Shown here in pieces: positions 5,524 to 40,102 of a DNA stretch of 52,706 nucleotides (position 1 is the first letter of the stretch; each line of letters opens with the position of its first letter). Location: assembly GCA_017475005.1 (NCBI GenBank), contig JAFVGI010000043.1, positions 1 to 52,706 of the forward strand, read 5' to 3'. A model generated the notes under the pieces. It saw only the letters and a list, made by a program, of their open reading frames with translations. It made no database searches and was not told where the DNA came from. The DNA is from Prevotella sp. (GTDB lineage: Bacteria; Bacteroidota; Bacteroidia; Bacteroidales; Bacteroidaceae). Both the position numbers and the translations under genes were made by a program.

Positions 5524-5853
5524 GAGTTGAAAGGTGAAAGTTGAAAGGTGAAAGGTGAAAGGTTAGCGGTTAGCGGTTAGCGGTTAAAGTTTTGAGTTAA
5601 AAACAATTTTTTTTCGTTTTCGTTTTCGTTTTTTTTTCGTACCTCTGACCTTCGTCGAAGGTACTCCGTCATGGAAATAAAACAAAAAAATTGTTTTTTA
5701 TTTGTATTTCTCATAACTTATTCGTACCTCTGACTTCGTCGAAGGTACTTTCGTTCGAAAATACAAACAAAAATAAAAAAACTTTTCTTTTTGTTTGGTA
5801 TTTTGCTCACTTATTCGTACCTTTGCACACGAATTTAAGGTTTATCACAGAGC
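5524..5853. other. Repeat-rich region with three promoter-like modules before the nif3-like gene
   Basis: From left to right it contains GGTGAAA/GTTGAAA repeats (5524-5560), GGTTAGC x3 (5561-5582), T-rich sequence with TTTTCG x3-4 (about 5608-5637), and two decayed promoter modules. These carry TACCTCTG at about 5640 and 5726, each followed by a palindromic TTCGTCGAAGGTA. The intact promoter is at 5794-5825. I see no gene. Confidence 0.75.
5794..5825 (+). promoter_or_regulatory. Promoter of the nif3-aguAB-holA operon
   Basis: TTTG (5794-5797), a 20-bp spacer and TACCTTTG (5818-5825). The expected leader to the GTG at 5854 is about 22 nt. The surrounding block (TTTGTTTGGTATTTTGCTCACTT) recurs almost unchanged before lptD at 45320-45345. 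Confidence 0.85.
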
Positions 5854-27589: not shown

Positions 27590-27621
27590 TTTGGTTTTTT
27601 AAGGAAAAGTTACTACCTTTG
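27590..27621 (+). promoter_or_regulatory. Promoter of the tRNA-Gln gene
   Basis: TTTG (27590-27593), a 20-bp spacer and TACCTTTG (27614-27621); the mature tRNA begins 21 nt downstream. Confidence 0.85.
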
Positions 27622-27641: not shown

Positions 27642-27712
27642 TGGGATATGGTGTAATGGTAACACTGCAGATTCTGGTCCTGCCTTTCCTGGTTCGAGTC
27701 CGGGTATCCCAA
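27642..27712 (+). tRNA. tRNA-Gln (anticodon CUG)
   Basis: The 71-nt cloverleaf folds fully: acceptor TGGGATA/TATCCCA with the U1-A72 pair usual for tRNA-Gln, D-stem GTGT/ACAC, anticodon stem GCAGA/CCTGC, loop TTCTGGT, a 4-nt variable loop and T-arm CCTGG-TTCGAGT-CCGGG. The anticodon CTG is at 27674-27676 and reads CAG. The last anticodon-stem pair (27671/27679) is an A-C mismatch. CCA is not encoded (AACAA follows the acceptor stem). Confidence 0.93.
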
Positions 27713-39587: not shown

Positions 39588-39595
39588 CAAAGGTA
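39588..39595 (-). promoter_or_regulatory. -7 box immediately before the GTG of the LTA-synthase-like gene
   Basis: TACCTTTG on the minus strand, then CACCC, then GTG. The spacing is the same as at 15263-15276. Confidence 0.65.
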
Positions 39596-39711
39596 ATAAA
39601 AAAAGTTGTAAGTGAGATAAGTTTGCCAAGTTTTTTTTATTTTTTCCTTTGGAAAGTGTTGTTTTTTATGAGGCCAATAAGTCTAATAGGGCCAATCAGG
39701 TTCCTATAAAA

Positions 39712-39748
39712 TGAAAAATACACTGCGAATCTCACGACTTGCAGTGTA
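39712..39748 (-). terminator. Terminator of the candidate small RNA
   Basis: The 8-bp arms TACACTGC/GCAGTGTA (39748-39741 and 39726-39719) are followed on the minus strand by TTTTTCATTTTAT. Confidence 0.85.
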
Positions 39749-39905
39749 CTTAAAGTATGTTTAACTATAAAATCTCTTTCTAATAAAGAAAAGCCTCACG
39801 GTTTTTCTTTGTTATCCAAGAGTTAAACAATCTTTTCTAACCTAATAACTAAAACCTAAATCTATTATATATCTACTAACCTAAACAATATCTTTCTTGT
39901 TTGCG
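39712..39905 (-). ncRNA. Candidate small RNA (~190 nt) with own promoter and terminator
   Basis: A perfect minus-strand promoter (39941-39910) predicts a start near 39905, and a strong terminator ends it near 39712. There is no open frame of note. The 5' half is A/G/U-rich with repeated UAGGUUAG. The middle folds well: GUUUAAC (39828-39822) pairs with GUUAAAC (39765-39759) and UCUU with AAGA. An 11-bp stem AAAGAAAAACC/GGCUUUUCUUU (about 39810-39785) is closed by the GNRA tetraloop GUGA, which exists only on the minus strand. I do not recognise an Rfam family. A leader of the LTA-synthase gene is the alternative, but that gene has its own promoter downstream. Confidence 0.65.
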
Positions 39906-39909
39906 ATTG

Positions 39910-39941
39910 CAAAGGTACGGACTTTTTTCTGTGTGCGCAAA
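39910..39941 (-). promoter_or_regulatory. Promoter of the candidate small RNA
   Basis: TTTG (39941-39938), exactly 20 bp, then TACCTTTG (39917-39910) on the minus strand: a full match to consensus. Confidence 0.85.
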
Positions 39942-40102
39942 CAATTTTCGAAAAAACTTTCAAAAAGATACGTTTTCTTGATATTTGTCAAGAGGTTGTG
40001 ATGTTTTCCTTGTATTTTTGCCTCAAAATACGTGTAAAAAATCATAAACATAAGAATTTACCCTCAAAAATGTCATTTTTTGATGATGTTTTATGCTATT
40101 TA

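Follow-up and report, generated by a model that had tools for sequence, protein, structure and literature searches.

The stretch of DNA analysed here, called the window, comprises 52,706 nucleotides from Prevotella sp., and it carries a short intergenic unit on its minus strand (table 1). The next gene downstream encodes a sulfatase-fold (PF00884) protein, read as LTA-synthase-like, while the divergent upstream open reading frame (ORF) has only a sub-threshold match to DUF748. From the letters of the window it had been proposed that this place holds the gene of a structured small RNA, complete with promoter and terminator, and the comparative evidence supports that proposal; we consider the locus almost certainly a genuine small RNA (sRNA) gene. 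The proposed minus-strand promoter, TTTG and TACCTTTG separated by 20 bp, was confirmed. Shuffles predict 0.02 copies of the exact pattern in the window, which contains four. The promoter is of the sigma-ABfr type, as are those of the FopS RNAs discussed below. Among the 92 family members with enough upstream sequence, 75 carry TAnnTTTG within 70 nt upstream, and in 51 of those 75 it lies exactly 20 nt before ATTGTTTAGG. The three further exact copies of the promoter pattern are on the plus strand (2173-2204, 5794-5825, and 27590-27621), and the last of them precedes a tRNA at 27642-27712.

An RNA of about 190 nt ending in an 8-bp terminator hairpin with a T-rich tail had also been predicted on the minus strand, and the sequence bears this out: the stem is TACACTGC/GCAGTGTA (39748-39741 and 39726-39719), the T-run reaches 39714, and the terminator covaries among homologs. 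Neither the sRNA promoter nor the terminator was reported by a simple sigma-70/terminator scanner. The promoter was missed because its type differs from sigma-70, and we attribute the missed terminator to the inner loop of its stem.

Table 1. Features of the sRNA locus and the observations attached to them
Feature	Position in window	Strand	Observation
Promoter -33 element TTTG	39938-39941	minus	Sequence and exact-pattern count in the window
Promoter -7 element TACCTTTG	39910-39917	minus	Spaced 20 bp from TTTG
Predicted sRNA, about 192 nt	39714-39905	minus	5' end inferred from the promoter
Seed block 1, AUUGUUUAGGUUAGUAG	39873-39889	minus	Near-invariant in alignment A1
Seed block 2, GAUUUAGGUUUUAGUUAUU	39844-39862	minus	TTTAGGTTT+AGTTA in 29 of the same 30 covariance-model loci as in the text
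Small hairpin UUGUU...AACAA	39809-39830	minus	4 scored pairs; 91.3% of cells paired
GUGA-capped hairpin	39785-39810	minus	Compensatory changes in 8 of 8 scored pairs
Conserved GUUAAACAUA	39756-39765	minus	Possible partner of the 5' end UGUUUAG, not of the middle GUUUAAC
Intrinsic terminator	39714-39748	minus	Compensatory changes in 12 of 14 pairs, 49 members

Conserved Structure and 5' Domain

From 93 members, 80 with 165-193 bases were retained, 50 of these were non-redundant, and 49 were aligned (L052 was left out); a covariance model, R1, was built from 28 of the aligned sequences without the terminator. Members of alignment A1 had to contain ATTGTTT+AGGTTAGTA and TTAAA[CA]A[TA]A, and 22 places without the 3' motif were set aside when they were chosen. 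Loci from the initial sequence-pattern search had to contain the seed-2 pattern, and the matches listed include chance ones in unrelated taxa. Because these motifs were demanded at selection, their invariance in A1 and in the pattern-search loci is partly imposed. A BLAST search of 60 relatives gave matches in 36, many over the promoter stretch alone; those outside the genus (G038 and G043) span query bases 14-52, which is the promoter stretch, and were excluded from the family.

Absence of stem conservation in related genomes had been named as one ground for refutation; in the 49 aligned homologs both the hairpin and the terminator stems covary. The GUGA-capped hairpin scored 0.546 for covariation against 0.247 in shuffled alignments, a value reached by none of 500 shuffles, and the observed structure exceeded all 500 shuffles and every slid version on each of five measures. 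Its GNRA tetraloop (39799-39796) is present only on the strand of the promoter, as had been stated, and the hairpin is kept by compensatory changes. The rest of the proposed inner architecture fared less well. The stem described as 11 bp long exists but holds one A-C mismatch, and therefore has 10 pairs. The long-range stem GUUUAAC/GUUAAAC lacks compensatory changes, its pairing is no better than that of shuffles, and the UCUU/AAGA stem requires a CUCUU segment that was found in only 8 of the 49 aligned members. In the small UUGUU...AACAA hairpin the changes are one-sided (G-U) only. The conserved GUUAAACAUA pairs with the 5' end UGUUUAG in 98.8% of cells, with no variation between standard pair types; covariation is uninformative here because the pairs are invariant and both sides served as selection anchors. 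A possible peptide encoded in the hairpin region (an ATG follows AACA in L004) was considered and rejected, the frame being lost in other members as judged by eye.

Promoter, tetraloop, and terminator had been said to agree on the strand. The three do agree, and conservation sides with them, but folding energy prefers the other strand (z = -4.97 for plus, -2.71 for minus). Energy thus cannot pick the strand, and promoter, terminator, and conservation do.

Upstream of the hairpins lies a 5' domain with two seed blocks. When one covariance-model locus was examined from each of 30 of the 37 matching genomes, TTTAGGTTAGTA of the first block was present in 29 of the 30. The UAGGUUAG repeats that had been noted in the 5' half are indeed present. 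The accompanying suggestion of a single-stranded binding region holds in part: the domain is near-invariant and matches susC starts (see below), but its predicted single-strandedness is modest, with a mean unpaired probability of 0.43 against 0.33 for the rest of the RNA.

Other seed-bearing elements were observed. In the genome of the window, a second putative sRNA (G000:C66:9891-9915; L031, L150) contains seed block 2 exactly (ATAATAGATTTAGGTTTTAGTTATT), shortly 5' of a strong hairpin that resembles a terminator and has a CGUGAG loop, and its -7 box is one base off TAnnTTTG. Modular paralogues (L213, L217-L229, and L232) have seed motifs and AGATTG...GGATAACA units repeated or rearranged and, by reading, usually their own TAnnTTTG promoter and terminator.

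Distribution and Gene Neighborhood

The covariance search for relatives that had been advised was run. Among 40 genomes of the window's GTDB genus, model R1 matched 37 at E <= 0.01, three of them weakly (E > 0.001), including all 22 genus genomes that are at least 90% complete. Under stricter filters, by which weak matches are lost, 22 of 301 family genomes matched, all from the window's genus (1 of 30 genera), and no match was found in the 29 other genera sampled from the family. The search with BTnc231 described below, apparently on the same draw of genomes, listed 22 genomes of the window's genus, so that the contrast would be 22 of 22 genus genomes against 0 of 279 others. Hosts among the matches listed include Prevotella bivia, P. 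denticola, P. jejuni, P. veroralis, Segatella copri, Hallella multisaccharivorax, Hoylesella marshii, and Leyella stercorea. The number of R1 matches per matching genome ranged from 1 to 6, with a single match in 23 of 37, more than one in 14, and four to six in four genomes; the window's own genome has one, together with the seed-bearing short putative sRNA mentioned above. The phage collection yielded no match, or short matches only at E 0.7, and one exact seed pattern did not occur in IMG/VR. Another seed pattern was seen in two IMG/VR contigs classed as viral (L347 and L348), these being seed-bearing copies, either prophage cargo or host flank.

An association with AsmA-like or LTA-synthase-like genes, which had been suggested as a guide for the search, is not general, since an LTA-synthase-like neighbor was found in 6 of 131 contexts. 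The commonest neighbor was a divergent group-1/4 glycosyltransferase, upstream in 52 of 131 contexts; its one representative examined matched Pfam PF13692/PF00534, and its N-terminal motif occurs near 19 of 30 covariance-model loci. In 21 of 131 contexts the closest ORF encodes a small protein that looks DUF559/endonuclease-like by unaided reading; it lies downstream on the opposite strand in 17 of them and upstream on the same strand in 4.

Complementarity to susC Start Regions

In Bacteroides thetaiotaomicron, FopS, a family of paralogous sRNAs with 12-15 copies, represses susC translation through a 5' seed and is bound by RbpB, according to the parts of the report available (PMC11697453). 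The 5' domain of the Prevotella RNA was therefore tested against susC start regions. We counted perfect complements of at least 9 nt to the 54-nt consensus 5' domain within -60 to +15 of the start; susC was defined by TIGR04056, start codons were picked by rule (two rules were compared), and L268 and L270 (no start found) and L407 (cut by the contig end) were dropped. The first 43 susC starts gave a marginal result (11 with a site vs. 4.9, 21 of 1000 shuffles), and for that reason 57 more were fetched; this second batch alone gave 15-16 against 5.6-5.7 (4 of 2000 shuffles). Of all 100 starts, whose leaders are not independent because susC genes are homologous, 26-27 had a 9-nt site against 10.5 (SD 4.1-4.2) for dinucleotide-shuffled seeds, a count reached by 0 of 2000 shuffles and, in a rerun, by 1 of 2000. 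Sites of 8 nt were weaker (39-40 of 100 vs. 27, 19-30 of 799 shuffles), and those of 7 nt were not significant in the first 43 starts.

No excess was found in the adjoining window of susC from -135 to -60 (5 of 100 vs. 4.1-4.4) or in 477 other gene starts (13 vs. 16.6). The GC of susC start regions is 0.29 against 0.36 for other genes, and the subset of other starts with GC of at most 0.36 gave 12 of 311 against 14.6. The 69 susC starts from four genomes of four genera without the RNA had 6 sites against 5.1, and the genus differed from this outgroup (Fisher P = 0.003). When 7-mers enriched in genus over outgroup susC starts were counted blind to the seed (P uncorrected for the number of k-mers), the top ones, AACCTAA (20 of 100 vs. 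2 of 69) and TAATAAC (15 of 100 vs. 1 of 69), both lay inside the reverse complement of the 5' domain. The matches of different susC start regions begin anywhere from position 1 to 46 of that domain. By genome, the signal was carried by G016 (11 of 29) and G012 (11 of 48), with 2 of 10 in G028, 2 of 5 in G008, and 1 of 8 starts read in the window's own genome, where the target signal is weak and the susC gene L263 has an 11-nt perfect match, ACTAACCTAAA, at -17.

Predicted duplex energies of the consensus with the 43 susC starts averaged -18.9 against -17.2 for shuffled seeds (2 of 60 shuffles as low) and differed from those with 500 other starts (Mann-Whitney P = 8.6e-6), while 700 gene starts showed no general excess. 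For the window's own 5' domain, the mean with susC starts was about that of the shuffled consensus. Near-perfect targets in the same genome were also sought: five antiseed 16-mer matches with at most two mismatches were obtained (two in a backward control), of which two are seed-bearing sRNAs and three are not convincingly at start codons, so these candidates were set aside.

Possible Role and Alternative Explanations

We think it likely that these RNAs are a trans-acting, base-pairing sRNA family of the Prevotella lineage that represses SusC translation, and pairing with susC mRNAs would probably be their main role. Transcription would begin near 39905. At the ribosome-binding region of susC mRNAs, UUUAGGUU-type seeds would pair with sites of the ACCUAA/AAUAAC type and so block translation. 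Many sugar-uptake loci (PULs) could thereby be held down together or ranked, and the hairpin and terminator may stabilize the RNA or serve as a docking site for a protein, which in most cases would be neither RbpB-like nor CsrA. Judged from its complementarity, the sRNA probably helps gut and oral Prevotella choose which sugars to import. A wider proposal, which we regard as evenly balanced, is a genus-wide, RbpB-independent nutrient-uptake RNA regulon, in which a near-invariant seed cassette is present in essentially every Prevotella, susC mRNAs have acquired start-region sites, and paralogues reshuffle seed modules for different sugar-uptake loci.

The seed repeats could be read in another way. 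If the UUAGGUU/AGGUUAG repeats titrated a single-stranded-RNA-binding protein, the RNA would be a CsrB-like decoy and its susC complementarity secondary; seed-type motifs repeated up to four or five times per fetched region in the modular paralogues would suit such a function, as would the GGA-type loop AACAGGAU that several members carry in their small hairpin. We consider it unlikely. The RNA-binding families searched were CsrA (PF02599), with no match in 20 genus genomes, 12 of them of good quality, and RRM_1, with matches in 3 of 60 (all three among the 32 good ones) and none in the window genome as assembled (81% complete), which makes both RbpB, an RRM_1 protein, and CsrA unlikely as the usual partner; moreover, a decoy would not predict an antiseed specific to susC and to the genus. 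A rather improbable alternative is that AACCUAA/AAUAAC in susC leaders is a translational or regulatory element read by something else, with the sRNA pairing elsewhere, for example, with other envelope genes. The homology of susC leaders is in keeping with this, as are the 13 of 477 non-susC starts that match, some of them secreted or lipoprotein-like by reading of the N-terminus, but the part of the 5' domain that is matched varies from one susC leader to another, which pairing would predict and a single fixed motif would not.

Two further explanations seem to us very improbable. It ends about 130 nt upstream of the LTA-synthase-like gene on the same strand and could be a cis-acting leader or attenuator of that gene; however, the terminator intervenes, the gene has its own TACCTTTG at 39588-39595, and homologs adjoin other genes in every combination of orientations. 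A housekeeping RNA not recognized by Rfam, such as 6S RNA, would be expected to be genus-wide and is consistent with the single match in most matching genomes, but by reading the consensus has no 6S-like long rod with a central bubble, no 6S family matched at threshold in the window or appeared among the 15 matches up to E = 10 at 39650-40050, and the four genomes with several matches speak against it.

Relation to Known RNAs

An Rfam scan, which had been advised for this unannotated RNA, gave no family at threshold for the sRNA, the only match in the window being the tRNA. Among known RNAs, FopS is similar in having canonical sigma-ABfr promoters, a conserved 5' seed, an intrinsic terminator, and complementarity to the translation-initiation region of susC; FopS is multicopy, as the Prevotella family may also be, and by this analogy the Prevotella sRNA may work like FopS. 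As far as FopS is described in the parts of its report available, its consensus is a single-stranded 5' stretch plus terminator, whereas the Prevotella family adds the covarying GUGA hairpin, and its RRM_1 partner is rare in the genus, as given above. We did not file the family as FopS, with which it was compared by description and not by sequence, because its architecture and, probably, its partner differ. GibS of B. thetaiotaomicron, also compared by description from the available parts of its report, resembles the RNA in its intergenic position, extended 5' seed, middle hairpins, terminator, and start-codon pairing, but it has a non-canonical promoter motif (PM2) and, instead of susC, it directly targets BT_3893 and a gene for a glucan-branching enzyme (PMC7366714).

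BTnc231 (RF04180) shares a CGUGAG-capped hairpin followed by a terminator. At the sRNA, this model scored 20.9 bits in the window and 28.3 bits in L019 (only one of 20 sources), against a gathering score of 80.4. The genomes above that cut-off, 15 of 301, all belong to one other genus, with 0 of 22 in the window's genus. Sub-threshold matches of up to 42.9 bits occurred in 12 of the 22 genus genomes, similarly weak ones in 27 of 30 genera, and the strongest three genus cases (G181, G222, and G064) lie elsewhere than the listed R1 matches.

Prevotella and Segatella dominate many human guts and rumens. Among the papers listed by the literature searches, some of which gave only the best 20 of more, we found neither a description of this sRNA family nor a characterized regulatory sRNA for Prevotella/Segatella. 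Candidate noncoding RNAs have already been published, however: a human-microbiome RNA screen gave 3161 candidates, two of them Prevotella-specific and mostly near uvrC (PMC8040213), and a periodontitis metatranscriptome gave further putative noncoding RNAs (PMC7160235). The family may therefore have been listed computationally among them, as far as the descriptions in the available parts of these papers allow comparison. If the susC reading is true, one conserved RNA family coordinates the translation of SusC uptake proteins in the Prevotella lineage, mostly without a Bacteroides RbpB-type protein, which would mean either convergence or common ancestry followed by a change of partner; a concrete seed, target sites, and compensatory mutations are supplied for testing.

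In the first 1.2 Mb of G314:C1, from another genus, no FopS-like multicopy RNA was recognized. The same 1.2 Mb contains 12 intergenic segments with a common palindromic repeat of about 90 bp (AAACTATAAACGCAAGCTTT...), possibly MITE or REP-like.
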